A stretch of DNA of 26,617 bases from a virus (IMGVR_UViG_3300034375_006719:1-26617); one strand, 5' to 3'; numbered from the stretch's first letter, positions 7,650 through 23,925 are shown. The notes: generated by a model not told the origin, from the letters alone. Numbers and translations are program-made.

Positions 7650-8291
7650 ATGATTGAAGATTCAAATCCTAATCTAGGGATTTACGATATGACAGTAGAG
7701 GTTTCAAAAGACGCTCCAAAGTTTTTACGTTATAAACTAAACGAAAACATTTGTAATGGCGGTGGTAGTAGTGGGCAAACTCAGACTTCAGGAATTGATC
7801 CTGAGTTTAAACCTGATCTTCAAAAAGGATTAGGCATTTCAAGAGATTTGCTTGAACAACAACAAGCAGATCCTAGCACAGTAGTTGCAGGATTAGACCC
7901 ACGCCAACAAGAAGCTCTTGGCGCACAAACATTTATGGCTAAAGATAAAATAACTGGTCGTGGATTGTATAATACTCGTGCTGCAGAAGAAAGAGCATTG
8001 CGAGATCTTGCAGGTCAAAATCTTTTAGGTGCAAGTACAGGTAACACACTTGGTTCTGCCCGTAGTCAAGCAGCAATGCAAGGCGCTTTAGCAGGGCGTG
8101 CAGGTGATTATCAAGCACAACGGCAACAAATGGCTGATATCGGTGTTGAACAACTTGGACAAGCTGGTACTACATTTCAAAAACAAAAACAAAAAGAACT
8201 TGAAGCTAAAGATACTTCACTTGATCGCTTCTTTAATCGTTTGACAGGTGTAGCAAATAAAACTACTACAACATCTGGTGGAGGTAAGTAA
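7650..8291 (+). CDS. Probable virion-interior protein, 213 residues
   Basis: No family recognised with certainty. After a polar N-terminus there is a Gly/Ser linker (CNGGGSSGQTQTSG, about 35-48), a segment IDPEFKPDLQKGL, then a long Gln/Ala-rich helical region (about 60-195: LEQQQADPSTV, LDPRQQEALG, GSARSQAAMQGALAGRAGDY) suited to coiled coils, and a Thr/Gly tail. Composition and position match small internal or ejected proteins of marine podoviruses. GGAG lies 7 bases before the ATG, and the gene starts immediately after the previous stop. The last codons, encoding SGGGK, contain the GGAGG ribosome site for the next gene. Confidence 0.6.
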   Translation: MIEDSNPNLGIYDMTVEVSKDAPKFLRYKLNENICNGGGSSGQTQTSGIDPEFKPDLQKGLGISRDLLEQQQADPSTVVAGLDPRQQEALGAQTFMAKDKITGRGLYNTRAAEERALRDLAGQNLLGASTGNTLGSARSQAAMQGALAGRAGDYQAQRQQMADIGVEQLGQAGTTFQKQKQKELEAKDTSLDRFFNRLTGVANKTTTTSGGGK

Positions 8292-8887
8292 TGGCTGTTA
8301 ATATTGCACTTGACGATGAAGAAATGCAAAGGCGTATGCAACAAGTTGCGCCATTAGCACAAATGCCAACCCCTGCAGGTGCGCCAGTACAACCTAGTAC
8401 TATGGATCAAGCTAAGGCTATGGGTACTCAAATGGTACTTGAAAAAGGGCTTGAAGCAGGAATGGCTAAAGCTACTCCTTTAGTAGAAGCAGGGCTAGCT
8501 AAAGGTACATCTGCTTTAACTGGAGCTGGAATGGGTGCAGGGGTTGCTACTGCAGTACCTTATATTGGCGCTGGTTTACTTGCAGGTAAAGCACTAGGCT
8601 TATTTAGTAACGGCGGTCGTGTTGGTCCTTTGTATGCGGCTGATGGAAAAATGGCTTACCCATCTTACAGAAGTAATTACAGTGATTTGAGTGATGCTGA
8701 AATTCTTAAATTAAGCCCTGAAGAGCAAGATGAATATATTAAAACTATTGGCATTGAAGAAGCAATGGATGCTATGTATAATTATAAAGGCGGCAGGGCT
8801 GGCCCATTGTCTAAAGTAGAATACAAGTCAGCTGGCGGTGACGTCTATAAACTATCTTATGGTGGTCCAATAAGCAAAGGAGTGTAG
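8291..8887 (+). CDS. Probable virion-interior, membrane-active protein, 198 residues
   Basis: Residues 1-70 are Met/Ala/Gln-rich and helical. Residues ~72-105 form a glycine-zipper hydrophobic stretch (ALTGAGMGAGVATAVPYIGA) able to enter a membrane, as in several phage ejection proteins. A short motif NGGRVGPLYAADGK follows at 107-120 and recurs in reduced form as KGGRAGPLSK (166-175) and GGPISK near the end; related motifs occur in the 935-residue protein downstream. An acidic helical segment (about 130-160) lies between them. It overlaps the previous gene at ATG/stop and has GGAGG 6 bases upstream. Likely role: a minor capsid-interior protein delivered at infection; this is inference from composition and place. 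Confidence 0.6.
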   Translation: MAVNIALDDEEMQRRMQQVAPLAQMPTPAGAPVQPSTMDQAKAMGTQMVLEKGLEAGMAKATPLVEAGLAKGTSALTGAGMGAGVATAVPYIGAGLLAGKALGLFSNGGRVGPLYAADGKMAYPSYRSNYSDLSDAEILKLSPEEQDEYIKTIGIEEAMDAMYNYKGGRAGPLSKVEYKSAGGDVYKLSYGGPISKGV

Positions 8888-8888
8888 T

Positions 8889-10256
8889 ATGGCAACAATT
8901 CCATATCAACCAACGTATACTACGACTCCGAAATATGGTCTTAGGTATGGTCCATCTCAATTCGCTCCTACAACAGGTACAGCAGGGCAAGGCAGTGCTA
9001 GCCAACAGGTACCTCCAGCTACACTGGGAACACAACAAGGCGGCTATACAATGGCTGATCCTTTTTCTGGCAATCAACAGTTTGCTCAACAACAAGCTTC
9101 ATATGCACCAACACAAGCTTCAGGTGTAAGCAATGCGGCTTACTATGGGCAACCTATTCAAGGAGTATCTGCACAGCCAACTACAGGTTTTCGTAGGCTA
9201 GCTCCGGGAATGACCCAACCACCCCCTGTTTCTACACCAACGCCTACCCCGCCTATGACAACAGAGCCACCTGTACAGCCAACCTCTTATGGCATGGTAG
9301 ATCCTTTTAGTGATAATGACGAGTTTAGACAATCGCAAGTAGCGCAAAGAGATGCCTTCAGTAATACCTTTGGTTATACTAGAGGCACTCAAAATCCTGT
9401 AGGTGTCTTAGGCATGATTCCAGGAGTAGGTTTTGCAATGAATGCGCTCGGTTATAACCCAAATGAAGGTTATACTTATGGTACAGGAGGAACTACAGAT
9501 GCTCAAGGAAATATGTTTGGTAACTATGGTCAAGCTTTTGATCCCCTTACTGGTAAAGCAGTAGCTTCCTTCGGTGGTCCTGTTGGTATGATGGATGTTG
9601 GTAAATCAGCACTTGGTCAAGTAGGTATATTTGGATTTGATCAATCAAATATGATTGAGCCTTATCGTGCTACTGATGCTATGATAAGGCAAGGAATTAC
9701 AGATGCAAGCCTTGCAGGATTACCTAGTATTCCTGGAGAGGTATCTATTGCTGCTATTAGCCCTGATAAACCAATGACTAATCTTGGAACAAACGAATCA
9801 TTTAATGAAGCGGCATCAGCAGGAACAGTTACAGATGGTAATGGTAATCCAGTAACTAGTACAGCCCCTGATGGGACTAAAACAGTAGTTACAACTGGTA
9901 CGCCAATTCAACAAGCAGCTGCTAAACAAGCTTATGCTTCAGGTAATACAAAAGCACCTGCAGGATCTTCAGCAGCAGTTCAAGCAGTGTTAGATAGCTT
10001 AGATCCATCTAAAGCTATTTCTTCAGATGTAACAACATCTATTAGCGATATTGTTAGTGGAACAGGAATGACACCTGCATCTACAGGTAGTAGTAGCTCT
10101 AGCGCTAAGCCGAGTACTCCTGCACCAAGTAGTGTTGCAAATCCTGCAAACTATAATAATAAAGATGGAGTACCATCAAAACCGTCATCCCCTCCTCCCG
10201 GACATCCTGAATATAACAAAGGTGGAAACGATGATAGCTCAAGTGGAGGCAAATAA
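8889..10256 (+). CDS. Low-complexity virion protein, 455 residues
   Basis: No known enzyme motif. It is rich in Pro, Gln, Thr, Ser and Gly. Two copies of a short motif are visible: YTMADPFSGNQQFAQQQ (53-69) and YGMVDPFSDNDEFRQSQ (134-150), separated by a proline-rich linker (PPPVSTPTPTPPM). The middle (about 165-250) has a Gly-rich, weakly hydrophobic part (GVLGMIPGVGFAMNALGYN). The C-terminal ~70 residues are a Ser/Pro/Gly disordered tail. AAAGGAG lies 6 bases before the ATG. The last codons (SSGGK) carry the GGAGG site of the next gene. It probably belongs to the internal virion set; disorder would help passage through the tail. Confidence 0.6.
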   Translation: MATIPYQPTYTTTPKYGLRYGPSQFAPTTGTAGQGSASQQVPPATLGTQQGGYTMADPFSGNQQFAQQQASYAPTQASGVSNAAYYGQPIQGVSAQPTTGFRRLAPGMTQPPPVSTPTPTPPMTTEPPVQPTSYGMVDPFSDNDEFRQSQVAQRDAFSNTFGYTRGTQNPVGVLGMIPGVGFAMNALGYNPNEGYTYGTGGTTDAQGNMFGNYGQAFDPLTGKAVASFGGPVGMMDVGKSALGQVGIFGFDQSNMIEPYRATDAMIRQGITDASLAGLPSIPGEVSIAAISPDKPMTNLGTNESFNEAASAGTVTDGNGNPVTSTAPDGTKTVVTTGTPIQQAAAKQAYASGNTKAPAGSSAAVQAVLDSLDPSKAISSDVTTSISDIVSGTGMTPASTGSSSSSAKPSTPAPSSVANPANYNNKDGVPSKPSSPPPGHPEYNKGGNDDSSSGGK

Positions 10257-13063
10257 TGAAACTTAAAAGTCTTACAAATAAAGACCGATATGGTAATATG
10301 TTCTCCGTTGAGTTCTTTGAGCCGCAAACATCGGTTCCTATGATGATGCTTATTCCTGAGATGGAAGAAGAGGGTTATAACGGTGCTACTGTAGAAGGGC
10401 ATCCCGGAGATCCTAAAGGTACTGATACAGTCCCTGCATGGCTAACTCCCGGAGAAAACGTAGTTAATGCAGAAGCCTCTCGTATTCCGGGCAATCAAGA
10501 AATGATTGATCAAATGAACGAAGAGGGTCGAGCTATACAACAAGCACAAGGTGGACCTATTCCTACCTATGAGGCAGACGGTGGCACAATGCCAGCAGCT
10601 AGTATTGATGGTAATGAGTTTGTTAAAGCAGCTCAAGCAGTAGGTTTACCAACAAATAAATCAACTTTAAATAAAATAGTTAAACTTGTTAATCAAGGAA
10701 TAAGTGTTGCACAAGCTGCAAAAATAGTTGCAGGTGTTCCAAAGTATGAATACAATGGCGGTATGATTCCTCCTATGTATTCAGCTGAAGGCGAAACAGT
10801 ATTACCACTTGGATTACGCCAAAATAATCCAGGGAATATTAGGTCTGGAAAAGATAATTGGTTAGGGCTTACTGAAGGTGGTAATGAAGGTTATGCTCAG
10901 TTTGAAAGTCCTGAATATGGACTTCGTGCTATGGCGCGTACGTTAGGTACTTATGCAGACACACATGATATTGGGACTATCGATGGACTTATTGATCGAT
11001 ATGCTCCTGCTGGAGATAACACTGAAGAATCGAGAGCAAACTATAAAAGTGTTCTTGCAGATACACTAGGTGTAGGTGTTAATGATCCTATTGACCTTAA
11101 GGCCGCACGTAATCAGCTTATGCCAGCTATGATTGGATTTGAGAATGCTAATAATATGCCATATACTCAAGATCAAATTAATATGGCAATTCAAGCGGCA
11201 GGAACAGATGATCCAGCAGCAGTTAGCGAAATACTAGCTGGTATGCCACCTAAAAAAGACAGTGGTTTTTCACTTATTTCTTCGGCAAATGCAAGTACTC
11301 TTGTTCCGGAGCTAGATCAAGCACCACCACCAGTCTCAAGAGGCGGCACACCAATTGATTCAGAAGCGCAAGCTGCAGGGATGCGCTTTAATGAAGCAAT
11401 ACCTGAGTATATGCGTAACAATAAGATGGAAGGTAAAACTGATTACGGTGATGTTATTTATGATTCAGATGGCACCCCACAAGCAGTAAACCCTAATCGC
11501 ATTTCGCCTGAAGCTAAACAAAAAATTATTGATAAGTTTGTAGAAAATGGCGATCAAGAAATGTATGATCGTAGAATAGCAGAATATGAGCAAGCAGTAA
11601 AACAAGATGAAGCTCATAAAAAATATAAATCAGATCAAGCAGAACTTGAAAAAACACAAGAAACATCTAAACGAAATGAAACAATTGCAACACTTGAAGA
11701 GCGTAGAGATCAAGCAATTGTTAACGGTGATGATGATTTAGCTGCTGCTTTGCAAAAAGAAATTGATGGAGTTCCACCTATTGAAGGTGTCCCTCCTACA
11801 AACAATGCGCCAGCAGATACAGATGATACATCATTAAATCCTATTGTAAATAATATTATAGCAGAAGGCTCTCAAGAAAAACAACCTGACAGCGATAACA
11901 CTAGCGAAGATGAAGTTATAGACGCAGGTAAGAATGCACCAGATTCTTTAAAAGAAACATTTAAACAAGGTTTTATAAATGCTTTTGGTGATTTGTTTAG
12001 TGCAAAAGAATTAGCAAGAATGGCAATTTTGTATACGGGATCTCGTATCTTAGGGTATAGTCATAATGGCTCTTTAGCTTACGGTGCTAAGAGTTATATT
12101 TCTAGAATTGATGCTAGAGATAAACAAGAGTATGAACTTGTAAAAGCTAACGCTAAAAATTACACTACAGAATCTTTTAATAAGTATATTGAAACACGAG
12201 ATATGGATGATCTTATACCTGTAGTTGAAGTAAAAGAACGCAAAGCAGGTGACTATCTTTATGTACCTAGGGCAGGTGGCAATGTGCCTTCAATAGATGT
12301 TGAAGGTGTTCCTCATGTTAGTGTTAGAGATATTAATGGGCCTGATGGTAAACCTGATGGTAAAGTTGATTCTTATGATCTTGAAAATGCAATTAATGTA
12401 GGCGGCGTTAAGACAGTAGATAATATTCATAACCCAACTACTGTAGAAGCTGAATTTAGTAAAACATTATCGGATTTAGAAAGCACTATAAATAAAAGAA
12501 GGGGCGTAGGTAATCAAGGTTCAGACGCAGTAGCGTTAGGGCTTAACGATCCTGTTGTGGCAAGTGCTGCAATGACTCTTTATTTCCAAGATCTTCAAGA
12601 CTTTAGTGCAGATCCAGCAAAAGCATACATGCTTAAAGGCCAAATGAAAGAAGCAATTCGAGAGTGGTCAGAAGCAATGGCAGCGTATGCTAATGACCCT
12701 AGCAGTATGGATGATCCGTCAAAATCTTTGTCTGCTTATTATTTTAAACGTAGGATTAAAGATCGAGTTGATGTTTCTGCATCTGCATTTGGTGATACTA
12801 CCCCTGAAAAAATGGTAGAGATTTATCGGGATACAAGTGCAGGGCTTAATGATTTACAAACTCAAACAGTTTATAAACGTGCCTTGCGTCTTTATAATAT
12901 TGCAAAGCAAAATAAGATAGATATGAAAGGGTTTGATTTTAAGGGAACAAATGATGTAGGTTATAATGGTTTTGCATTTTTCTTGCATCAACTTAATCAA
13001 GGCGATGATCGCGCAATTGCAGTCTTTAATGCAGCAAAAAAGTTTGAGACTAAAAAGGAGTAA
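10256..13063 (+). CDS. Large virion protein with TPGE motif and NNPGNIR (muralytic-like) domain
   Basis: A 935-residue protein. Residues 42-95 hold a motif common in phage virion proteins (KGTDTVPAWLTPGENVVNAE). Residues 98-113 (GGPIPTYEADGGT) and 167-180 (NGGMIPPMYSAEGE) carry the short GG-P-Y-A motif seen in the 198-residue protein. Residues ~186-312 form a compact domain beginning LRQNNPGNIR, then NWLGL...YAQFESPEYGLRAMARTL, IDRYAPAGDN and a C-terminal helix. I know this domain from phage structural proteins proposed to open the cell wall; Glu219 or Glu225-region residues could be catalytic but I cannot assign one. The rest (about 330-600 coiled coil, Glu/Lys/Gln-rich; 600-935 helical) is unrecognised. 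GGAGG lies 6 bases before the start. Likely an ejected core protein with local peptidoglycan-cutting activity. Confidence 0.65.
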   Translation: MKLKSLTNKDRYGNMFSVEFFEPQTSVPMMMLIPEMEEEGYNGATVEGHPGDPKGTDTVPAWLTPGENVVNAEASRIPGNQEMIDQMNEEGRAIQQAQGGPIPTYEADGGTMPAASIDGNEFVKAAQAVGLPTNKSTLNKIVKLVNQGISVAQAAKIVAGVPKYEYNGGMIPPMYSAEGETVLPLGLRQNNPGNIRSGKDNWLGLTEGGNEGYAQFESPEYGLRAMARTLGTYADTHDIGTIDGLIDRYAPAGDNTEESRANYKSVLADTLGVGVNDPIDLKAARNQLMPAMIGFENANNMPYTQDQINMAIQAAGTDDPAAVSEILAGMPPKKDSGFSLISSANASTLVPELDQAPPPVSRGGTPIDSEAQAAGMRFNEAIPEYMRNNKMEGKTDYGDVIYDSDGTPQAVNPNRISPEAKQKIIDKFVENGDQEMYDRRIAEYEQAVKQDEAHKKYKSDQAELEKTQETSKRNETIATLEERRDQAIVNGDDDLAAALQKEIDGVPPIEGVPPTNNAPADTDDTSLNPIVNNIIAEGSQEKQPDSDNTSEDEVIDAGKNAPDSLKETFKQGFINAFGDLFSAKELARMAILYTGSRILGYSHNGSLAYGAKSYISRIDARDKQEYELVKANAKNYTTESFNKYIETRDMDDLIPVVEVKERKAGDYLYVPRAGGNVPSIDVEGVPHVSVRDINGPDGKPDGKVDSYDLENAINVGGVKTVDNIHNPTTVEAEFSKTLSDLESTINKRRGVGNQGSDAVALGLNDPVVASAAMTLYFQDLQDFSADPAKAYMLKGQMKEAIREWSEAMAAYANDPSSMDDPSKSLSAYYFKRRIKDRVDVSASAFGDTTPEKMVEIYRDTSAGLNDLQTQTVYKRALRLYNIAKQNKIDMKGFDFKGTNDVGYNGFAFFLHQLNQGDDRAIAVFNAAKKFETKKE

Positions 13064-13066
13064 TTT

Positions 13067-16000
13067 ATGGCTGATGACTTTAGTTTAAAAGATCATCAAG
13101 GTAACAGTTCTTTTGTTATTGATGGTGATACTGAGTACAATAATGAAACAGGCAAACGTGAACGTTTAGCAGGTGTTAACGCTCGTGAAACAGCTAAAGT
13201 TAGCAAAGATAAATATGGTGAAGACGTATTTGAAGCTCCTGAACTTGGATCTGCAGCTCAACGAGAAGCATATAAAAAAATTGTTGAGCAAGGAGGCTTT
13301 AACTACAAAGTAAATACAGGCAAGTATGACAGCAATGGTCGAGAGATTATTGAAAGATACGATGCTGATGGTAATAGTCTTTCTGAAACTTTAATTGCAA
13401 CAGGAATAGTTAGGCCTGATATCTATACTAGTCCTGAAGCTATTCAAGCAAGGGAAGACTATTTACTAAGAGAACAATTAACAGGTAAGCCTGGAAATTT
13501 TTCAGAAATTGCTAACGATGTTGAGCAAGCAAGAGAAATTACTGGGCTTGCTTTTAAACAAACTGCTTTAAATGAAGCTGTATATAATCCTGATATTCAT
13601 TCAGGTGTTGCTTTTAGAGATCACGATAGAACGCTAGATAACAAAGGCATTGGTATTCTTGGTCAAATGGGTGACGCTTGGGATGCTGGATGGGTTGGTG
13701 TACGCGAAGGGATGTACGGATACCTTGAAGGCATTGGCGTGATGACTGGCAGTGAAATGCTAGAAGGTATTGGGGCGCAAGGCACTATGCGAGCGCGAGA
13801 AGAACTTCGTAATGCGCCTGAAGGTATTTTAGATTATCGTGAAGTAGATGGTCTATTAACAGGCTTTCAATATGTTATGAATAATGCTGCAATGAGTGCG
13901 CCCTATATGGTTACTACTTTTGGAGCAATGGCAGCTGCAGTTCCTGCTACAATGATTGGAGGACCACTTGCAGGTGCTATAACCTTTGGTTTACCAAACT
14001 CGTTCATTTATGGTGGTCATGCTTGGAACGAAATGGAAGGCGAAAAAGGTGCTGAACAGTTTGCAGTAGCTACAACAGTGGGTGTTGCTGCTTCAGTATT
14101 AGATCGCTTTGGTTTGTCTAAGTTGTTTTCTCCTACCCAGCTATTAAGTAAAGCAGGTGTTAAAAAAGTAGCTAAAGAACTAGCAGAAAAACGAGGTGTT
14201 TCTGAGGTAGTTGCTGAATCAGCGCTTAGAAAAGCAACTCGTGAAGAACAAAAGGCAGCAATTAGTATGCTAGGTTCGTTAACACCTGACGATCTTGCTA
14301 GATTTTCGGGAAGCCAATTAGGTAAACGAGCAATGGCTGGTGCTGCAATGGAATCAGCAACTGAGATTGCACAGGAAGGGCTTCAGTACGGCGCAGCTGT
14401 AGGTTTTTCTGATAAAGAATATAATGCAGATCAATTGTTTAATCGTCTTGTAAATGCAGGTATTGCAGGTGGTGTGCTTGGTGGAGGCCTAAGTGCTGCT
14501 GCTAATGTATATACGCAAGGTAAACAAGAAGTATATCGCCAAGGAAAAGCTCCTGGAGACCAAGATCGCTATCGGACTATGAATCAAGCTAAAATGAATA
14601 AGTTACAGCGCGATGGCAGTGTTGAAAGCATTGAAGAAAATATTGAGAATAAAGATGCACAACAAAACAGATCGCAACAAGCAAGGGCTGCAATTACGCC
14701 TGAAGAAAAGGAACGAGCTGTTGTTGGTAATCTTACAGAGGCACAACTAACTGAAATTACTTCTGGTTCCTCAGTTAATGCTATTCAAAGTGAACTTGAT
14801 ACGCTTGAGCAAGCACTTACTAATGCAGAAAAGCGTGGTGCAAATACAAGCAGAATTAAAGCAGCTATTGAAAATAAAAAAGCTGAGTTAACACAGGCTA
14901 AACAATTACAAACGCAAGCAATTGCAGAAGTAAAAAGAAGGAGTGAAGGTGCAAAGCCATTAACTAGCGAAGAAGTAGCATCTGTTAGAGAAAGAATTCG
15001 TCTTGCAGAGTTAGAAAGGCCTTCAGATGTAAAAGGTGTCTTTAATAATGAATCACAAAAACATATCAATAAAGTTAGAGGTGCTAAAAACTTTATAACT
15101 AATCTTGTTGATCTTTCTGATTTTGCCTCTAAGGTAGGAACTGGTTTAAAGAGATTATTTCAAGCAGCAGAACGCAGCGCAATTGAAATGTCTAAGCTAG
15201 TTAAAGACGCATCTTTGCTAGATATTTTTGCAAGAGTTGGACAGTTAACTACTGGTGTTTATCACGCTGGTAAAAACTTTAAACAATTTGCAGATGAACT
15301 TATTTCAGAATTTAAAATGTATGTCGATGAAAATTATATAGCTAAACGTTTATTTAACAAAACAATGAATGCAAGCAATGTAATTAAAGCTTCAGCAGAG
15401 ATAAGAGCTTTTGCAAGTAATGAAGGTGTAACTAACGGTAGTGTTTTTCAACAGTATATTGCTTGGCTTCAAATAAAAGAAACAGGTGTTCCTTGGGTAG
15501 AGTTTTATAAACCAAGTGGAAAGCAAAAAGCTTATACTGAAGAACGCGCGCAAATACTTTATGAAGCATCTATGCAAATTAAAACTTCGTATGATGTAGT
15601 AGTTGCTAGGATTAATGAAGAATTGCTTAAAGAAGATCCTAAAGCAACACCTTATACGCTTGATCCTGATTTTTGGTGGCAAAATAGAGGTTTTGATTGG
15701 CACAAAGTAAGAAAAAATAAAGCTAAGTTTAAGGCATGGTTACGGTCAAATGGCTTTGATGAAACTCAAGCTGAAATTATGTATCAAAATATTGCTTACC
15801 GTGGCCAGGCAAACTTTGTAGAAAACTATTCACATGTTAATGGAGATACTTTTTATCCTCCTTTTTTAGAATCTAAAATATTAGATCTTAGTAAACAAAA
15901 AGGATTTGAAGATTTTGCTAGCGAAAATATATTTGAACAGCTTAATAAAGCACAAGTAGAAGCAGCAAAGTATATCTCTATTACTAAATACTTTGGGCAT

Positions 16001-17659
16001 GGTGGTAGAAAGCTTGACTTTTTAATTAGCGAAGCAATACGTAATAACGCAGACAATGATCCTAACGATCCTAATGCAATTACAAGAGAAGACATTGAGC
16101 AATTTGCTTTTTATATGAAGGCAATTATTGATAGTACTCATGGCAACTTTAATGCTATTGAACAACCACAATGGGCTGCTATTAATCGTTTCTTAACCTC
16201 ATGGTCTATCTTTGCAGGATTACCTTTGTCTACTATATCATCTATTCCTGAAACAGCTATGATTTATTATGGTCTCCAGGATGATGCTGATTGGAAAATG
16301 GCTAATAAACAATTGATTACTCAATTAGCTGGAGCATGGGATAAAGCCACTGCTGAAGAGGTTAAGCGTACCGCTGACTTAGTTGATAGAGTTGGCATAC
16401 CTATGAATAGAAATACTATTATTGATAGGCTAGCTACAGGTGAGCGAGATGTGGCTTTTATCAAAGCGCATGAGACTTTCTTTACTTATATTGGAATTAA
16501 AAACTTTACTCAATTTCAACGTAGAATGAATGCTGGACTTGCTATTGATTTTATTAAGTCTAGAACAAGTATACTTGTAAATGCACCTTTAAAACCTGTA
16601 TTGTATTCAGCAGTAAAGCAGAAGAATCAAGATGATTTTGATTTTTTAAATTCAATTGATGAAATTGAAGTTGAAGAGGGTAAATTAGGATTTGATTTTG
16701 ACGAAATGAATGCTGAAGAGTTAGAAGCTTGGAATGCATTAAATGATTTAGGGCTTGATGTTGAACGCATGGTAGAAATTATGCGTGATACAGATGAACT
16801 TTATCGTGATCAAATTTTTAATCCTACTAATACAAAGATTAAAGATAATGATTATATGTTACCTCCTTCTCCAAAACAAGCCGCAGTTCTTTCTGCATTT
16901 CAAAACTCTAAAGATAATAGAGGCACTGAAAGTGATCAAGAATTAATTGCAAAAGCACAAGAACTTGAAAATGAAATAAATGAACAACTTGAAACAGCTG
17001 TGTATCGTTTTGTTAATGAGCGAATTCAAAATCCTCAAGCTGCAAACAGACCTTTGTTTTTTCAAGATCCGCATTATCAATTGTTAACTCAATTTAATGG
17101 TTTTATTTCTACATTTACAGCAGTAGTAATTCCTAAACTTTGGAATCAGTATTTGCGTAAAGGTAATCCTCAAGTTAAATATAATACTTTTGCTTTAATT
17201 GTAATTATGATTAGTCTTGGTGGAGCAAGCCAGTATATTAAAGATTTATTAAAGTTTGGAAAGCCAAGCCCTTATCTTGATACTACAGGTTATGCTCAAA
17301 GAGCAGTGTATGCATCTGGTGTAATCGGTCAATACGAGCGTTTAGCAGATGTAGTTTCACCATTGTATCCTAGCCGTGATGATTGGTTAATGTCAACTAT
17401 TTTAGGCGAAGCAGGCCCAACAGTTAGAAATATTCAAACTCTTGGCAGTGCAATTGGATTAGGCATGCAAGGCGAAGGAGAACGTGCAATTTCAAAAGGC
17501 TTAGGTGCAGCACCGTTAATTGCCCCTGTTACATCTGTACGTAAAGGAATAGCGCAAGGACTTACTGGTCAAAACCCTTTTGAAAACACTACAGTCGGTA
17601 ATGTAGCAGGAGAGGTAGCAGACTCAGCTGAAAACCTAGCTAGAAAACTTTTTAATTAA
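13067..17659 (+). CDS. Giant ejection protein with N-terminal staphylococcal-nuclease-like domain
   Basis: A 1530-residue protein, the size and place expected of a T7 gp16-like ejection protein. Residues ~14-118 match the micrococcal nuclease fold: VIDGDT (Asp21), a strand ending RERLAGVNARET (Arg33, Asn38, Glu41), a helix AAQREAYKKIVEQG, SNGREII (Arg92, equivalent to R87) and LSETLIATGIV. D21, R33 (R35), E41 (E43) and R92 (R87) are kept; the calcium ligand D40 is Asn38. Residues ~278-316 are hydrophobic and Gly/Ala-rich, suited to crossing the inner membrane. Residues ~515-660 are coiled coil. The C-terminal third (FTQFQRRMNAG near 1145, a hydrophobic IVIMISLGG near 1376) resembles large polyvalent phage proteins. 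AAGGAG lies 6 bases before the ATG. No lysozyme domain was seen here. Confidence 0.75.
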   Translation: MADDFSLKDHQGNSSFVIDGDTEYNNETGKRERLAGVNARETAKVSKDKYGEDVFEAPELGSAAQREAYKKIVEQGGFNYKVNTGKYDSNGREIIERYDADGNSLSETLIATGIVRPDIYTSPEAIQAREDYLLREQLTGKPGNFSEIANDVEQAREITGLAFKQTALNEAVYNPDIHSGVAFRDHDRTLDNKGIGILGQMGDAWDAGWVGVREGMYGYLEGIGVMTGSEMLEGIGAQGTMRAREELRNAPEGILDYREVDGLLTGFQYVMNNAAMSAPYMVTTFGAMAAAVPATMIGGPLAGAITFGLPNSFIYGGHAWNEMEGEKGAEQFAVATTVGVAASVLDRFGLSKLFSPTQLLSKAGVKKVAKELAEKRGVSEVVAESALRKATREEQKAAISMLGSLTPDDLARFSGSQLGKRAMAGAAMESATEIAQEGLQYGAAVGFSDKEYNADQLFNRLVNAGIAGGVLGGGLSAAANVYTQGKQEVYRQGKAPGDQDRYRTMNQAKMNKLQRDGSVESIEENIENKDAQQNRSQQARAAITPEEKERAVVGNLTEAQLTEITSGSSVNAIQSELDTLEQALTNAEKRGANTSRIKAAIENKKAELTQAKQLQTQAIAEVKRRSEGAKPLTSEEVASVRERIRLAELERPSDVKGVFNNESQKHINKVRGAKNFITNLVDLSDFASKVGTGLKRLFQAAERSAIEMSKLVKDASLLDIFARVGQLTTGVYHAGKNFKQFADELISEFKMYVDENYIAKRLFNKTMNASNVIKASAEIRAFASNEGVTNGSVFQQYIAWLQIKETGVPWVEFYKPSGKQKAYTEERAQILYEASMQIKTSYDVVVARINEELLKEDPKATPYTLDPDFWWQNRGFDWHKVRKNKAKFKAWLRSNGFDETQAEIMYQNIAYRGQANFVENYSHVNGDTFYPPFLESKILDLSKQKGFEDFASENIFEQLNKAQVEAAKYISITKYFGHGGRKLDFLISEAIRNNADNDPNDPNAITREDIEQFAFYMKAIIDSTHGNFNAIEQPQWAAINRFLTSWSIFAGLPLSTISSIPETAMIYYGLQDDADWKMANKQLITQLAGAWDKATAEEVKRTADLVDRVGIPMNRNTIIDRLATGERDVAFIKAHETFFTYIGIKNFTQFQRRMNAGLAIDFIKSRTSILVNAPLKPVLYSAVKQKNQDDFDFLNSIDEIEVEEGKLGFDFDEMNAEELEAWNALNDLGLDVERMVEIMRDTDELYRDQIFNPTNTKIKDNDYMLPPSPKQAAVLSAFQNSKDNRGTESDQELIAKAQELENEINEQLETAVYRFVNERIQNPQAANRPLFFQDPHYQLLTQFNGFISTFTAVVIPKLWNQYLRKGNPQVKYNTFALIVIMISLGGASQYIKDLLKFGKPSPYLDTTGYAQRAVYASGVIGQYERLADVVSPLYPSRDDWLMSTILGEAGPTVRNIQTLGSAIGLGMQGEGERAISKGLGAAPLIAPVTSVRKGIAQGLTGQNPFENTTVGNVAGEVADSAENLARKLFN

Positions 17660-17667
17660 ACAACTAC

Positions 17668-17690
17668 GGCGGTCCCCCTAAGGGGCCGCC
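17668..17690 (+). other. GC-rich hairpin before the second RNA polymerase gene
   Basis: GGCGG-T-CCCC pairs with GGGG-CCGCC around a CTAA loop, with one bulged T: nine GC pairs in an otherwise AT-rich genome. There is no T-run after it, so it is not a standard intrinsic terminator. It ends 6 bases before the AGGAG ribosome site of the 17708 gene. It may be an RNase processing or stability site, an attenuator that lowers expression of the downstream gene, or a pause site for the phage polymerase. Confidence 0.8.
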
Positions 17691-17707
17691 ATACTAGGAG
17701 TATAATA

Positions 17708-20700
17708 ATGGCTATTAGAGCACAACAACAAAGAACTAGTGGAGATATTCGCCGCGCTCAAGATCAAGAGATGGCACGTATTGAGGCTGAAAGAGATGAA
17801 CAAAGATTACTTCAAGAGGAGCCTAACCCTGCAGTAGCAGCTGCATTAGCAGATGAACAATCCGCAGCTGCGCTAGACCTTCCTTCTGATGTAAGTAATT
17901 TACCAGTGTCTACAGAAGACACACCTGTAGAAACAACTTCAGGTCGATTAGAACGTGAAATACAAGAGCAACAAAACCTTAATCCGCTTAAAGCTGAATT
18001 GTTAGGACAAGCTCAAGCAGAAGCTAGGGCAGGTGCTACAACTATTCCACCAACTGAATCCGATGTAGAGTCTCAAATTGAGCAACAAGTTGCAATGTCA
18101 CAACGGCGAGTAATGCCAGATATTGATTATAGTTATCAAGGTGGACAAGAGCTTGCTAAACAATTACCGCTTGCTACTGCTTCTGCTTCTTCTTATGATA
18201 AAATGGTTTCAGTAGGTAATAGACTTAATGCTGCAGCAGAAATTACTTTTGCAAATGTGTTAGCTTCACCAGAACCACAATCAATTGAAATTAGAAATGC
18301 AATGCTTAACGCAGGGCTTATTACTCCTGACGGTAAAATGACACCTAAACAAGGCAATATACTTAGCTTTCAATGGTTGCAAAATACAGAGGAAGAATTA
18401 AATAAAAAAGATAAGATGATTGCTCAAGAAAAAAATCCGCAAGAATCTTATAAGTATGATGACAATACAGATGATATCGATATATTTGATGAAATAGCTT
18501 CAGGAGAGCCTATTTCAAAGCCTCATGTTGGCGACTTATTAAACCCAGAGTATGAAAGACTTAATATTTCTCGTGGAGTTATTGATAAGTCATTACCAAC
18601 GCCGGATGTTGTTGATGGAATTAGAACAAGCTTTGGTGGCGCAAGTACACAAGTCCCTTCTAGCGTATTACAAGGCCTTGATGCGTTATACTGGCAAGTA
18701 TTTGATGAGGCAGGATTCGTAGAAAAAGTTACTCATGGTGATAAAACAATGTATCAAATGTCTCAAGAGGCAGTTGATTATTATTTTGATGCTCGTGATG
18801 TAATGAATGATGTTATTCCTGAAACTAATTCTTTACCCTCTTTGTTTGCTGCAATTGATGGGCTTACCTTTGGTGCAGAACGAGACTTAGGTTTTAAAAA
18901 AGAAGGCAATGTATCTATTAAAAGTATGAGAGCAGTTGGCGATGACCAAGAACGACAATTCATGGATAACCAAGGTCGATCACCTATTCGTATTAATAAC
19001 GATATGTTTTCAATTGGACAACGATTTGTAAACTCCATTATTCGTTATCAAGTACTTGCTAATGGTCGGATTATTCTTAATCGCAAACAGCCATTAACAG
19101 ATAAAGACCCTAAACATTTTTATTCTACTAATCCTTATGCAGAACGCGTAGGTATGCATAAAGCTAAATGGGATGCTTACAAATCAGCAGCAGAAATGCG
19201 TTTAGGTATGACTGAAATTGATGCTGAAGAACAAGCAAATATGATTATGGCAATGCAAGCACGTAAGTTAGCAATGGATACTCACTATGGCTCTGAATTT
19301 TCAGATAAAATATTTTATCTTCGCAAGATGTATGCTTCTATTACAGGACGTATTCATGATAGAAATAGCCGTCTTAGCCCTCAACAAAGTAAATATGTAA
19401 GAAACTTTTTAGAGTCTGCAGTGCCTGTGTTTATTGATCTTGGTAAAACAAACAATAAAACAATTAGAGAACAAGCAGAATATGCAATTGGTCGTGCTTT
19501 GCTTTCATCTAAAGATACAGGTGGTCGGCGTATAGAAGATATTGGTTGGAACGAAACAACTAAACTTGCAAAAGAAAAAATATTTAATGATCCAGAAAAT
19601 TATTCTCGAATTGTTAATATAGGCCGCAAAGTAAGAGACCTTAAAAATAATCCTTCATTAAACATTAATGAACAGTTAGAAGGTATTGATACTGATTTAG
19701 CAAATGCAACTAATGACCCTGAAGAATGGGGTATTCTATTACAAGCATATATTGATATGGCAAACTATGATGATGCAAATAGTGTATTAAAATATCAAAT
19801 GACACCTGACTCTACTGTAACTGTTCAAACCAGACCAGCTGCTAGGACAATTGTATCAAGCCCGATTAATGCAGAAGGAAAAAGGGTATCGCCTCGCGCT
19901 AAACAATTAATGCAGCAATTAGAAGATGCACGTATTAATGAAGATCAAGATATGATTCAACAGTTAGAGTCAGAGCTTAATAACGAGATGAATACCTTAT
20001 CTGTTGTTTCTGCTCCTGTAAAAACTGCTAGCTCTATTTGGAGACCTCGTGTTCTTATTAAGCATGACACTAAACAAAGTGGCATGGCAATTCAAGCTGC
20101 ATTGTTTGGAAATGTAGATATTTTAAAACGAGTAGGCGCTATTTTTTCAGATGAAAAGAATATTATTCCTGAAGGAGATATTCGTGATTTGTTTATGGAA
20201 AATTTAGATAGCTCTATTAAAATTGCATTTACAGATGATTTAGCTAAGCAAGGTTTTTGGACTGATATTATAAACAATTTAGCAATGCAAGGAAATAGTA
20301 AAGCCGTAGCTAAAGCTCTTTCAAGAGCGCCATTGATGGAATCATCCTATGGTAAATTTATTGGCTTTATGCAAGAGACAGCAATTAAATTTATCAATGG
20401 TGAATTTGGTGATTTTATTCAAGAAAGAATTAAATATTCTAGTAATGTTTTGCCAGGATATAATGAAAATCAAGCAATAATTGATTTGAATAGGTTAATT
20501 GCGGTTAATCTTAATCGCACTTTGTCTTTTCAACAACAAAAATTGTTAAAAGATTTAGGCGCAGTGTGGGCTATTCTTGGTAATCAGAATGCTAGAGTTA
20601 GAAGTGCTACTGGTAAAATGATTTATTTAGGTGGTAAAGAAGCAATATCAACAGGTCAACAAATTAGTTTACCAACACCACGAGGTCAAATTCAACGTGA

Positions 20701-21472
20701 TGTAACTGCAATTGTACCTACTAGTACTGGTAAAACAGAAAAAGTACCGTTAACTTTTGATGAAGAAACTTTTAAATTTAAACCTGGACAAGAAACTAAA
20801 TATGGGCAGCAAGTTATTAATCAGCTTCCGGTTGTTATTATTCAGGCTTTAGATGCAGCAATTATGGTTAATACAATTAACCTTGCTAACAAAGGACGCA
20901 AAGAAAAAGGATTGCCGCCTTTGTTTATGCTTGATATCCATGATTCTATTATTTCAGATATTAACTCCGTAAGAGCTTCTCATCAATTGTATAATAAAGT
21001 AGCTAAAGAATTAACAATGCCTGGAAAACGTCAATATCCTATTTGGAAAATGATTAGTGAAGAACTTTCTCTTGGAGTTAAAGAATGGAAACAATCAATT
21101 AATCCAAAAGATACGTATGAAGTTTCAGATAGAAGCTTAACTTATCGTGGATTACATGGTCAATTGCAAGAGCTTAATAATAAAATTTCAGATGAAACTA
21201 AAAATACTTTTCCAGAAGGATTAGAGGGATTGGGTGGTTTATCAGGGCGTGAAAGTACAAAAGCTTTACGCGCTAAATTAACTGAAATTAAAAGACTAGG
21301 TTGGAAACCAGAAGGTGCAGTTATGACTGGAGAAGCACTTCAAAAAACTGTTCAGTTAATTACAAATTATTTTCAGTTAGCAAGCCGATTAAGGGCTGCT
21401 CAAGCTGAAGTTATAGCTGATAATGAAAAAGCTGCTAAACTAATTTCACCAAATTACATGGGCTTTAACTAG
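17708..21472 (+). CDS. Probable virion-packaged single-subunit RNA polymerase (N4 vRNAP-like)
   Basis: A 1254-residue protein with the ordered signatures of single-subunit RNA polymerases in its C-terminal 60%. A loop at 544-567 (SITGRIHDRN...SPQQSKYVRNFL) matches the GR...NPQ region before the palm. Motif A is LIKHDTKQSG with Asp787 (T7 D537). Motif B is KALSRAPLMESSYG with Lys869, Arg873 and Tyr881 (T7 R627, K631, Y639, so Lys and Arg are exchanged). LPVVIIQALDAA at 1040-1051 fits the helix before motif C. Motif C is DIHDSIISD with His1078 and Asp1079 (T7 H811, D812). Motif spacing is close to T7 except for a Gln/Glu-rich insertion of ~125 residues before motif A. Residues 1-130 are Gln/Glu-rich and probably disordered. 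It is much more like N4 virion polymerase than the T7-type enzyme at 21787. It follows the ejection-protein gene, so packaging is inferred. AGGAG lies 7 bases upstream. Confidence 0.75.
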   Translation: MAIRAQQQRTSGDIRRAQDQEMARIEAERDEQRLLQEEPNPAVAAALADEQSAAALDLPSDVSNLPVSTEDTPVETTSGRLEREIQEQQNLNPLKAELLGQAQAEARAGATTIPPTESDVESQIEQQVAMSQRRVMPDIDYSYQGGQELAKQLPLATASASSYDKMVSVGNRLNAAAEITFANVLASPEPQSIEIRNAMLNAGLITPDGKMTPKQGNILSFQWLQNTEEELNKKDKMIAQEKNPQESYKYDDNTDDIDIFDEIASGEPISKPHVGDLLNPEYERLNISRGVIDKSLPTPDVVDGIRTSFGGASTQVPSSVLQGLDALYWQVFDEAGFVEKVTHGDKTMYQMSQEAVDYYFDARDVMNDVIPETNSLPSLFAAIDGLTFGAERDLGFKKEGNVSIKSMRAVGDDQERQFMDNQGRSPIRINNDMFSIGQRFVNSIIRYQVLANGRIILNRKQPLTDKDPKHFYSTNPYAERVGMHKAKWDAYKSAAEMRLGMTEIDAEEQANMIMAMQARKLAMDTHYGSEFSDKIFYLRKMYASITGRIHDRNSRLSPQQSKYVRNFLESAVPVFIDLGKTNNKTIREQAEYAIGRALLSSKDTGGRRIEDIGWNETTKLAKEKIFNDPENYSRIVNIGRKVRDLKNNPSLNINEQLEGIDTDLANATNDPEEWGILLQAYIDMANYDDANSVLKYQMTPDSTVTVQTRPAARTIVSSPINAEGKRVSPRAKQLMQQLEDARINEDQDMIQQLESELNNEMNTLSVVSAPVKTASSIWRPRVLIKHDTKQSGMAIQAALFGNVDILKRVGAIFSDEKNIIPEGDIRDLFMENLDSSIKIAFTDDLAKQGFWTDIINNLAMQGNSKAVAKALSRAPLMESSYGKFIGFMQETAIKFINGEFGDFIQERIKYSSNVLPGYNENQAIIDLNRLIAVNLNRTLSFQQQKLLKDLGAVWAILGNQNARVRSATGKMIYLGGKEAISTGQQISLPTPRGQIQRDVTAIVPTSTGKTEKVPLTFDEETFKFKPGQETKYGQQVINQLPVVIIQALDAAIMVNTINLANKGRKEKGLPPLFMLDIHDSIISDINSVRASHQLYNKVAKELTMPGKRQYPIWKMISEELSLGVKEWKQSINPKDTYEVSDRSLTYRGLHGQLQELNNKISDETKNTFPEGLEGLGGLSGRESTKALRAKLTEIKRLGWKPEGAVMTGEALQKTVQLITNYFQLASRLRAAQAEVIADNEKAAKLISPNYMGFN

Positions 21473-21482
21473 GAGAGATAAA

Positions 21483-21734
21483 ATGAAAAAGAATTTTAAT
21501 ATACTATCTCTTAAAGGATTAGACTTTGATGATATGGAATTTGTAAAACAATTTAATCTAAATGCTAATCTTGCATACACACCAGAGTTAAATGAAGCTA
21601 TTCTTGAACGTGTATATTCTGATAATGTTAAAAGTTTAATAGATGCTGGAGAAAAAGAAAACAATGCTAAAATGAAAGCAGGTAGAGAACGAGCTGTTGC
21701 TCGCCGCGAAATAGAAGCATTACTTAATAAATAA
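21483..21734 (+). CDS. Small protein of 83 residues, unknown
   Basis: The last gene of the plus-strand operon, 10 bases after the polymerase-like gene and just before the terminator. AGGAGAG lies a few bases before the ATG. The product begins MKKNFNILSLKGLDFDDMEF and ends in a charged helix (KENNAKMKAGRERAVARREI). No family recognised. Strong ribosome site and operon position support it as real. It may be a partner or assembly factor for the preceding protein, but nothing in the sequence shows this. Confidence 0.75.
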   Translation: MKKNFNILSLKGLDFDDMEFVKQFNLNANLAYTPELNEAILERVYSDNVKSLIDAGEKENNAKMKAGRERAVARREIEALLNK

Positions 21735-21788
21735 AAATACCCCACAGGGAATCCTATATGGAAACCTTGTGGGGTTTTTTTTATTTTT
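21731..21788. terminator. Bidirectional intrinsic terminator between convergent operons
   Basis: ACCCCACA (21739-21746) pairs with TGTGGGGT (21768-21775), extended by GG/CC pairs with a small bulge. On the plus strand it is followed by a run of eight T, then ATTTTT. Read on the minus strand it is followed by ATTTTTAT. It therefore serves both the plus-strand late operon and the minus-strand operon that ends with the T7-type RNA polymerase, whose stop codon lies at 21787-21789. Confidence 0.92.
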
Positions 21789-23925
21789 AACAGAAGAAGT
21801 AATCTGAATCACGTACACCTTTAATATCAAGTGTACCAATCGTAGGCACAACGCCTTGATAGCCTCTTCCGAAAGGAATACTATTATAAAAGTTATTTGT
21901 ATCGTATATAGACACAAACTCTTCTCTAGTTTTATTCATAAGTAACTCAACGTGTGTTGCATGAGTGCTAAATGAATCATGCACGGCACCAAAGTCACCT
22001 TCCCAGTTAGCTACAGTAAGAGCCATGTGACTAGCATCCATACTATGCACAAAGTTAGGGCTAATACCGCACATAAAACCACGCCTATCAGGGATATCTG
22101 TTTTCTCTCTGATAACATGTTTAAAGCGTATCTCGCCATCAAGAGTATTAAACCCGTAGCAATCTACTTTAACGGGCCTAGTACGATAGCACTCGTACAC
22201 CACAGGGAAGCCGGATGGGGTTACCCATTCAATTCCCTTACCTCTGTCTGTGCCATAGTCTCTGGCCCAGTTTGTGATCTCTTGATCGGCAAGGCGCTGT
22301 AGGTATCGCATAGTATCTAGCGGTCCTGGACAGACTTCCTGGATAGCTCTGATAACTTGATTGCTTAGCTCATCGCAATCCCAAGTGCTTATGTTGTAGT
22401 CTTCAGTAAAGCCGAATTGATAGCAGTCACTGTACATAGATTCAGACATTTTCTTTTGTCCACAGCTATAAGCACGTGTCATAGCCCCACGCTTAGCAAT
22501 GCCCTTACGAATATGCTTCATAGGCATTTGACGCTCTTCAAACCATTCAGGCATACGTTGAGTAAGCCGCTTAGCTACTTGTACATAAAAGTCGTTCTGT
22601 ACCTCGGTAGGAACAAGGCCAACTAACTGACCTGTGTTATCGTCTTTAGACATTGCGCCTAAGTGTTGCCAGCCGTTATTAGCACCATCAATAGGTATAG
22701 GTAAGCGCGTGTAAAAGTCACCTTCAGTTTGGGAGTACTTGTACCATTCAATACAACAAGCAAGAAATGAAATAGGCTTTTCTGCTTCATGCATAAAGAT
22801 TTTACGCTCACCAAACTCAACAATGCTATCTATGTTTTGTTGAGTCCACATTGCTCTATCTTCAAGAGTCATCTTGTCAACTGAAATAGTATCAAGTTCC
22901 TCTTGCTCAAGCACACTACGATAATCAGTAGTAACCCAATCAGGTATTTCATCAATACCGTAGGACTGATTATATGAACAAGCAGTATGAACGCCTAGCC
23001 AAAAGCTAGCGTTACTATCAAACAACTTTGCTCTTGCAAACAACAGTTGTCCTCGTGCTATATCAGAGCCTTGAAAGTTAAAGAAGGGTTCTGAATAATA
23101 CAGCCTACCTCTATAGTCTGCATCGAGATAAAAACTAAACTCTTTATGCAACCATTTAGCTGCAATTGCCATTACCTCTTTTACTTCTCTATTCTTTGAA
23201 GCTTGCCGCTGATATAGCTTTTCGTTTTCTTTCTTGTCTTCACCATCAAATTTTTCTGACTTAATAAAAGAATCCCACTGCTGCATAATAGCAGCGTGTA
23301 CATCTGGATTAACAAGCCAACGAGTTGCTTGAAGCTTGTCGATAGCCTTAACAAAAGGTGCATTAAGATAGTAAGTAAATTTCTTTTCCTTAGATTTATC
23401 CCAAGTTTTAATAACGCTTTTGTCATTTGCTTGCATTAAACTAGTAATCGGTTTAATGATTTCATCAGTCATACAAATAGTTTTGCCAGCAACTGCTTCC
23501 ATTTCACCCCATTTATCAGTGGCATGGATAGTTACTGGCTTACGGCTTTTCATATGGCCTACCTGTATAGTAAGATAACCACACATTACAAAGCCTTCTA
23601 TAACCAAGTCGCCTACACGAACATGATCTCTAAAGTTAACATTGTTAGCGTCCCAATTTTCGATAATGTGTTTACCAATAGCCATTGAAGCTTGGGTAAT
23701 AGGCGTTTCACCTTCTGTTTTGCTACGCTTAAAACAGCGTTGCATTGTTTTTCTAGCGTAAGTAATCATGTCTTCAATTAAGAAGTCAAGCATATCAACA
23801 CCATCAGTGTCAATCATACGCATAAGCTGTAAATTACGTCTAGGTTTGACTCCTAAGTCATCCCCTCTAATTTTATTCAGAAGATAGTCCTTTACGTCTT
23901 CCATCAGTTTCTCTTTTCCAAACAT
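21787..23925 (-). CDS. T7-type single-subunit RNA polymerase
   Basis: A 712-residue DNA-directed RNA polymerase for phage promoters. Visible elements: DADYRGRLYY at 268-277 (T7 DWRGRVY); motif A IPIDGANNGWQH with Asp413; motif B RKGIAKRGAMTRAYS with Lys478 and Tyr486; TPSGFPV of the specificity-loop region; GISPNFVHSMDASHM; motif C VHDSF with Asp650; and an aromatic C-terminus SDYFFC like the FAFA foot of T7. In motif B the position of T7 R627 is Lys474, with Arg473 next to it. The part before DxRGR is 267 residues against about 420 in T7, so the N-terminal domain is short. Start: Met1 has only GGGG before it; Met8 (ATG at 23904) has GGAAAAGAG 6 bases upstream and may be the true start. It overlaps the upstream 84-residue gene and is last in the minus-strand operon. 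Confidence 0.95.
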   Translation of the reverse strand: MFGKEKLMEDVKDYLLNKIRGDDLGVKPRRNLQLMRMIDTDGVDMLDFLIEDMITYARKTMQRCFKRSKTEGETPITQASMAIGKHIIENWDANNVNFRDHVRVGDLVIEGFVMCGYLTIQVGHMKSRKPVTIHATDKWGEMEAVAGKTICMTDEIIKPITSLMQANDKSVIKTWDKSKEKKFTYYLNAPFVKAIDKLQATRWLVNPDVHAAIMQQWDSFIKSEKFDGEDKKENEKLYQRQASKNREVKEVMAIAAKWLHKEFSFYLDADYRGRLYYSEPFFNFQGSDIARGQLLFARAKLFDSNASFWLGVHTACSYNQSYGIDEIPDWVTTDYRSVLEQEELDTISVDKMTLEDRAMWTQQNIDSIVEFGERKIFMHEAEKPISFLACCIEWYKYSQTEGDFYTRLPIPIDGANNGWQHLGAMSKDDNTGQLVGLVPTEVQNDFYVQVAKRLTQRMPEWFEERQMPMKHIRKGIAKRGAMTRAYSCGQKKMSESMYSDCYQFGFTEDYNISTWDCDELSNQVIRAIQEVCPGPLDTMRYLQRLADQEITNWARDYGTDRGKGIEWVTPSGFPVVYECYRTRPVKVDCYGFNTLDGEIRFKHVIREKTDIPDRRGFMCGISPNFVHSMDASHMALTVANWEGDFGAVHDSFSTHATHVELLMNKTREEFVSIYDTNNFYNSIPFGRGYQGVVPTIGTLDIKGVRDSDYFFC

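Follow-up and report, generated by a model that had tools for sequence, protein, structure and literature searches.

The 26,617-nt virus record IMGVR_UViG_3300034375_006719, the whole of which we call the window, carries late genes on the + strand up to about position 21,734 and middle genes (T7-type RNA polymerase (RNAP), dCMP deaminase and primase-helicase) on the - strand, running toward the late genes. We examined the open reading frame (ORF) at 17708-21472, which an earlier note had taken for a second RNAP of the type packaged in phage N4 virions (virion RNA polymerase, vRNAP). The ORF and the motifs found in its product are:

17708..21472, + strand: compact vRNAP-like single-subunit RNAP; intact ORF, ATG start, 1254 amino acids (aa), no cysteine
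17708..18574, + strand: N-terminal ~290 residues, Q/A/E-rich, little conserved and unaligned to N4 mini-vRNAP (the profile alignment begins at ~residue 278)
19346..19402, + strand: T/DxxGR-type loop, G547-R548 ... S557-P558-Q559-xx-K562-xx-R565
20066..20083, + strand: motif A, D787-T-K-Q-S-G792
20312..20353, + strand: motif B, K869-xxx-R873-A-P875-x-M877-xxx-Y881-G882
20939..20995, + strand: motif C, H1078-D1079, with N1096 exactly 17 residues on

The ordered set of single-subunit RNAP motifs claimed for the 1254-aa protein is present in full (G547-R548, S557-P558-Q559, K562, D787, K869/R873/Y881/G882 and H1078-D1079); the T7 equivalents of K869, R873 and Y881 are R627, K631 and Y639. The spacing had been described as close to that of T7 RNAP, and this holds from motif A to motif C (292 residues vs. 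275 in T7) but not from R548 to D787, a distance of 239 residues compared with 112 in T7, 135 in N4 and 152-239 across the family described below; the difference from T7 and N4 points to an insertion in the window protein. When the protein sequence was shuffled, a regular expression for the ordered motifs with spacing windows was matched in 6 of 20,000 shuffles, and a stricter expression that adds K562, R565 and N1096 in none of 20,000. The N-terminal ~290 residues might be a packaging or ejection segment.

As a single query, the window protein retrieved nothing useful from Pfam, PHROGs, PDB sequences or 50,697 phage genomes, and it is strongly diverged from every library profile. The closest cultured phage, Roseobacter phage CRP-7, was found via the T7-type RNAP and the 1530-aa protein encoded upstream of the ORF. 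CRP-7 gp33 (QBQ72826.1) occupies the same position, right after the ejection-type gp34 and convergent with the T7-type RNAP gp30; it is 22% identical to the window protein and, across motifs A to C, aligns to it at 21% (pairwise E 1e-5). In a blind multiple alignment it retains D787, Q790-S791, K869, R873, Y881-G882 and H1078-D1079. The two proteins share position, all catalytic residues and the lack of cysteine. The expectation that a standard annotation would read "hypothetical" was borne out, as Pfam and PHROGs give the window protein no polymerase call and the CRP-7 homologue is labeled "hypothetical protein."

Further relatives were reached via the neighboring T7-type RNAP gene in a scan of viral contigs, which gave 80 loci, most of which have an ORF homologue placed, as in the window, convergent with that gene. 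Family members are about 1160-1370 aa long and adjoin the T7-type RNAP in 68/68 loci, a count with some circularity in it, since that gene served to find most of the loci; L006-L014, which came from CRP-7 gp33 instead, are free of it. No part of the family alignment was sufficiently conserved to search contigs directly, and when one member was used to scan bacterial and archaeal genomes, a scan sensitive to close relatives only, no relative was found. At one locus a T7-type RNAP relative (L076:7818-9020) has a DNA-ligase-like ORF in the same orientation after it, with no convergent vRNAP gene despite 2.2 kb of room.

Conservation was measured in an alignment of 43 non-redundant full-length homologues from marine viral contigs. 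R548, K562, R565, D787, G810, R826, D1079 and N1096 are 100% conserved, as is K/R at position 873, while Y881 and G882 are conserved at 98 and 95%; the motif A consensus is DGxxNG, for which the window protein has D787-T-K-Q-S-G792. The invariant residues hold although homologues are as low as ~13% identical to the window protein. Both the position among internal virion proteins, with N4-type flanking domains lost, and the strong divergence of the window protein from library profiles could fit an ejection protein of polymerase descent that now has a structural or DNA-translocation role only. Yet both catalytic Asp residues, the GR Arg and the K/R pair are invariant in the 43 sequences, and their invariance at ~13% identity calls for selection for catalysis; we therefore consider a purely structural role very unlikely. 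The idea that an unrelated structural protein matches the motifs by chance, for which one could cite the failure of Pfam and PHROGs profiles to detect the window protein as a polymerase, has a negligible probability: it is refuted by the 43 conserved homologues, two confident structural models and a profile alignment at E 3e-17 (both given below). We concluded that the protein belongs to a diverse, conserved family of single-subunit RNAPs with an intact catalytic set. Its identity as a single-subunit RNAP is nearly certain, and synthesis of RNA is predicted from its sequence.

The predicted fold agrees with the motif analysis. An AlphaFold2 model of residues 290-1254 built with 52 sequences was confident (predicted local distance difference test (pLDDT) 82.5, predicted template modeling score (pTM) 0.80), and all 50 of the 50 PDB matches listed for it are single-subunit RNAPs, including yeast mitochondrial RNAP (E 1e-13), T7 RNAP (9e-12) and N4 mini-vRNAP (7e-9). 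Among these listed matches, N4 mini-vRNAP has the highest query-normalized template modeling (TM) score, 0.43; among viral models the best query TM-scores were 0.44-0.47, with Schitoviridae vRNAPs among them. A second member (L028, 16% identical), modeled separately, reached pLDDT 82.7 and pTM 0.84, and its 50 listed PDB matches are likewise single-subunit RNAPs only, many of them N4 vRNAP structures, with TM-scores up to 0.50. Across the two models the PDB matches reach E 1e-16, and by these matches both have the cupped right-hand polymerase fold. The earlier note had proposed such a comparison of AlphaFold models with N4 mini-vRNAP and T7 RNAP by Foldseek, and the outcome, single-subunit RNAPs only among the matches listed for both models, favors its claim. 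A profile search of PDB sequences gave sub-threshold matches only (E 0.16-0.28), the top ten all mitochondrial RNAPs with motifs B and C in register.

Next, we asked whether the family lies nearer to the N4 vRNAP or to the T7-type enzymes, using a profile of 20 Schitoviridae vRNAP cores and a second profile from T7-type RNAPs. With hhalign, the family aligned to the vRNAP profile with Prob 98.9 and E 3.4e-17 over 669 columns, every motif in register, and to the T7-type profile with Prob 97.0 and E 8.8e-11. As controls, unrelated families of the same phages scored Prob below 1 against the polymerase family, and 34 of 35 column-shuffled profiles scored Prob below 0.1, the remaining one giving a nonsensical high score over 27 columns. 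The placement is not tied to hhalign, because HMMER and tblastn gave independent results. A vRNAP hidden Markov model (HMM) searched over all ORFs of the loci had its 32 best matches all in the compact family (best E 1.3e-10), compared with 0.014 for the best T7-type RNAP; in tblastn of L028 against 50,697 phage records, the only phage matched was Salmonella phage TR2, in its "virion RNA polymerase" (E 2e-4); and four members matched the PHROG "virion RNA polymerase" (phrog_2206, best E 2.9e-9).

Residue details point the same way. The family shares with N4 gp50 and other Schitoviridae vRNAPs the core NPQxxKxxR, DGxxNG, K/R-xxx-K-x-P-x5-YG and D-x16-N, and like them it is essentially free of cysteine. 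In the N4 GR loop the equivalents are R424, N432-P433-Q434, K437 and R440, and K437 and R440 help hold the initiating nucleotide (PMC4496689); T7 differs at this site (NPQGNDMTK). N4 motif A reads D559-G-x-T-N-G and motif B R666-xxx-K670-x-P672-x-T674-xxx-Y678-G679. The proline two residues past the motif B lysine (P672 in N4) is found in 31/43 family members, and the Asn exactly 17 residues after the motif C Asp (D951/N968 in N4) is invariant in both families; T7-type enzymes have neither, although they share the fold and the four catalytic motifs (phrog_414; T7 gp1; window 21787-23925). Identity between the N4 vRNAP core and the family is about 11-12%, and the alignment covers only the mini-vRNAP core: the N4 enzyme is about 3500 aa long, compared with 1254 aa here, and most of its flanking N- and C-terminal domains are absent.

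Alternatively, the family could have diverged from within the T7-type (phrog_414) branch, its gene having been relocated to the late operon, and could resemble vRNAPs by convergence; eight members match phrog_414 (best E 4.8e-8), and the Foldseek E-values favor mitochondrial and T7 RNAPs. The phrog_414 match does not discriminate, however, because N4 mini-vRNAP itself matches that PHROG (5.1e-6), and the profile and HMM scores favor vRNAP by orders of magnitude, with three vRNAP-specific residue features common to the family. We regard this origin as quite improbable. The branch call is based on similarity scores, not on a rooted tree, and a three-group alignment is unreliable outside the motifs. 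By sequence the family is nearer to N4 vRNAP than to T7-type enzymes; the affinity to the N4 virion type proposed earlier agrees with the profile-profile, HMM, tblastn, PHROG and residue comparisons, and we have little doubt that the family belongs to the N4 vRNAP branch.

The genes and features around the ORF bear on where its product would act:

10256..13063, + strand: virion protein of 935 aa, cysteine-free, with an endolysin-like domain; phrog_873 (head and packaging)
13067..17659, + strand: ejection-type protein directly upstream of the vRNAP gene, 1530 aa, no cysteine, phrog_6958 virion structural protein
17668..17703, + strand: strong hairpin between the ejection gene and the vRNAP gene, -20.9 kcal/mol, z -3.0, no T run
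21483..21734, + strand: small ORF of 83 aa, the last in the late operon
21739..21783, + strand: late-operon terminator, stem followed by a T run, -24.5 kcal/mol, z -4.4
21787..23925, - strand: T7-type single-chain RNAP of 712 aa with 14 cysteines, its gene convergent with that of the vRNAP

The gene was said to follow the ejection protein and to precede the terminator; the first part stands, but the 83-aa ORF at 21483-21734 intervenes before the terminator. The T7-type polymerase also reported for this phage was confirmed at 21787-23925 (PF00940, E=1.1e-59; phrog_414, E=1.8e-102). The hairpin at 17668-17703 possibly sets expression level or RNA processing. At its N-terminus (window 13067-13200, VIDGDTEYNNETGKRERLAGVNARE) the 1530-aa ejection protein resembles the start of a staphylococcal-nuclease-like domain, a resemblance seen in CRP-7 gp34 too; Pfam gives no match.

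A homologue of the ejection protein is directly upstream of the polymerase gene in 49/49 loci with room for it, and in N4, too, the vRNAP gene comes last in the ejection operon of the late region. Cysteine content gives a second indication. The window polymerase and the four preceding late proteins (198, 455, 935, and 1530 aa), which are consecutive and span 8291-17659, contain no cysteine, compared with 14 in the 712 residues of the T7-type RNAP. Over the loci, the compact polymerase family has 5 cysteines in 61,396 residues (0.008%) and the ejection-protein family 6 in 64,492, and the T7-type RNAPs of the same loci have 1,171 in 62,559 (1.87%). The ejected proteins of N4 (gp50, 0 in 3500; gp51, 0 in 644; gp52, 0 in 150) and T7 (gp15 and gp16, both 0) are free of cysteine, as are eleven divergent vRNAP segments from other Schitoviridae-type phages; T7 RNAP has 12 in 883. 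Cysteine depletion may be a simple marker of ejected phage proteins. Gene order and the near-absence of cysteine, common to proven ejected proteins, strongly suggest that the polymerase is packaged in the virion, and they support the view that it travels with the ejection proteins.

Alternatively, the second RNAP could be made late and act, unpackaged, within the same infected cell's cytoplasm, for instance at late promoters; its catalytic set is intact and its gene may simply be the last large one of the late operon. We consider this unlikely: its cysteine content is like that of ejected proteins and unlike that of cytoplasmic phage RNAPs (the T7-type enzymes are cysteine-rich, cytoplasmic, and made early or midway through infection), its neighborhood with an ejection-type protein is invariant, and its nearest characterized relative is a packaged enzyme.

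It is very probable that the gene encodes a compact virion RNAP of the N4 (Schitoviridae) lineage that is packaged, injected and transcribes the first genes before handing over to the T7-type RNAP; on packaging and early action taken by themselves, we infer that both are quite probable. The gene is the last large one of the late operon and directly follows that of the ejection-type protein; the polymerase would be made late and packaged alongside the other cysteine-free internal proteins. If it behaves like the N4 enzyme (PMC4496689, PMC12633501), it would pass through the short tail unfolded, ahead of or with the DNA, and then refold in the host, either in the cytoplasm or at the membrane. 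The refolded enzyme would then transcribe the first genes at the leading genome end; these genes, or their middle-gene successors, would supply the T7-type RNAP, which would transcribe the middle and late genes. By analogy alone, transcription by the packaged polymerase may also help pull the genome in.

The early region of related phages offers candidate sites for both enzymes. The CRP-7 genome has TATAGTCCCCTATTAAAAGG at gene-start positions in five oriented copies (0-3 mismatches):

2025 (+), 7146 (+), 14763 (+), 38281 (-) and 57231 (-), CRP-7 record (L004 / L003): copies of TATAGTCCCCTATTAAAAGG, one just before the T7-type RNAP gene

TATAGTCCCCTATTAAAAGG is a plausible candidate promoter of the T7-type RNAP. 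The first copy lies at 2,025 and about 2 kb of early genes precede it; this first ~2 kb, free of such sites, would be the natural target of an injected polymerase. In the complete relative G001 (57,850 bp, both ends repeating the same sequence), a double-hairpin leader occurs in two copies before the first early genes (L122:143-200 and L122:641-687), and its stems covary between the copies (GGGTAGCTC/GAGCTATCC vs. GGGTAGCAC/GTGCTATCC; AGGAC/GTCCT vs. AGGAT/ATCCT). CRP-7-like phages have conserved hairpins between early genes (L004:330-350, 577-592 and 1130-1155, and L133-L138), two of them with loop TGTAATG and differing stems, and one with a UUCG-type tetraloop whose stem changes on both sides among relatives. 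The tetraloop in one series suggests an RNA-level function for some of these hairpins.

Several points weigh against the proposal of an injected N4-type polymerase. Foldseek E-values place mitochondrial and T7 RNAPs above N4 vRNAP, and, with query TM-scores at a modest 0.33-0.50, the lineages cannot be told apart by structure alone. Virion proteins that are not ejected can also be free of cysteine (N4 major head protein, 0 in 401; CRP-7 gp51, 0 in 1166), and low cysteine therefore marks virion proteins, not ejection specifically. The large N- and C-terminal domains of N4 vRNAP are missing from the compact protein. The early hairpins are candidate vRNAP promoters, some of them resembling RNA-level elements, and the case for packaging and early transcription is drawn from sequence.

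Schitoviridae have genomes of 59-80 kb with three RNAP genes, among them those for a split RNAPII and a vRNAP of ~3500 aa (PMC7650795). By contrast, the phages described here have a single-chain T7-type RNAP and a compact vRNAP, and complete relatives measure 57.9 and 58.1 kb; the host phages of the compact vRNAP are outside Schitoviridae. The CRP-7 portal (L003:39612-41846) falls in the N4 portal family phrog_1216 (E 2.4e-83), but the major head proteins of CRP-7 and N4 belong to different PHROGs, and on these grounds the phages may be distant kin of Schitoviridae. The CRP-7 paper reported one RNAP (ORF30) and classed the phage as a non-N4-like podovirus (PMC6918029), and a virion-packaged RNAP has been regarded as something that, among tailed phages, only Schitoviridae possess (PMC7650795, PMC12633501).

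A large IMG/VR survey that used a vRNAP HMM, with reference vRNAPs of 2,842-3,820 aa, discarded sequences shorter than 2,500 aa and T7-like RNAPs (PMC10654107), and its length minimum would have discarded the compact family. This cut-off, together with standard libraries that are blind to most members, suggests how the family was overlooked. A literature search, with most subscription papers outside its reach, found no published description of a compact vRNAP. The 2270-aa protein of StenR_269, proposed as a vRNAP outside the classical N4 phages, is likewise large, cysteine-free and late; that proposal used no motifs or fold match, only the protein's size, helicity and lack of cysteine (PMC10747016), and we set it beside the compact family by description only.

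What is new is an unannotated polymerase family with the core and setting of the N4 enzyme, a third of its size and in a different phage lineage. It is likely that a lineage of marine podoviruses outside Schitoviridae ships a minimal (about 1,200-aa) N4-type RNAP, transcribes its first genes independently of host RNAP and runs a two-polymerase relay, the packaged enzyme lacking the giant autoinhibitory domains of N4 gp50 and perhaps representing an ancestral form. Virion-shipped transcription may thus extend beyond the single phage family to which it has been attributed. With a compact homologue in a distinct and widespread marine lineage, one could see which portions of the giant N4 enzyme a polymerase of this kind can do without, and there would be a second system for studying how a polymerase threads through a tail and refolds; the question becomes testable in the cultured phage CRP-7.

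Apart from the polymerases, the ribonucleotide reductase gene of CRP-7 (L003:25553-28171) is annotated in two pieces with another ORF between them, possibly an intron with a homing endonuclease; the window counterpart (963-2723) is intact.

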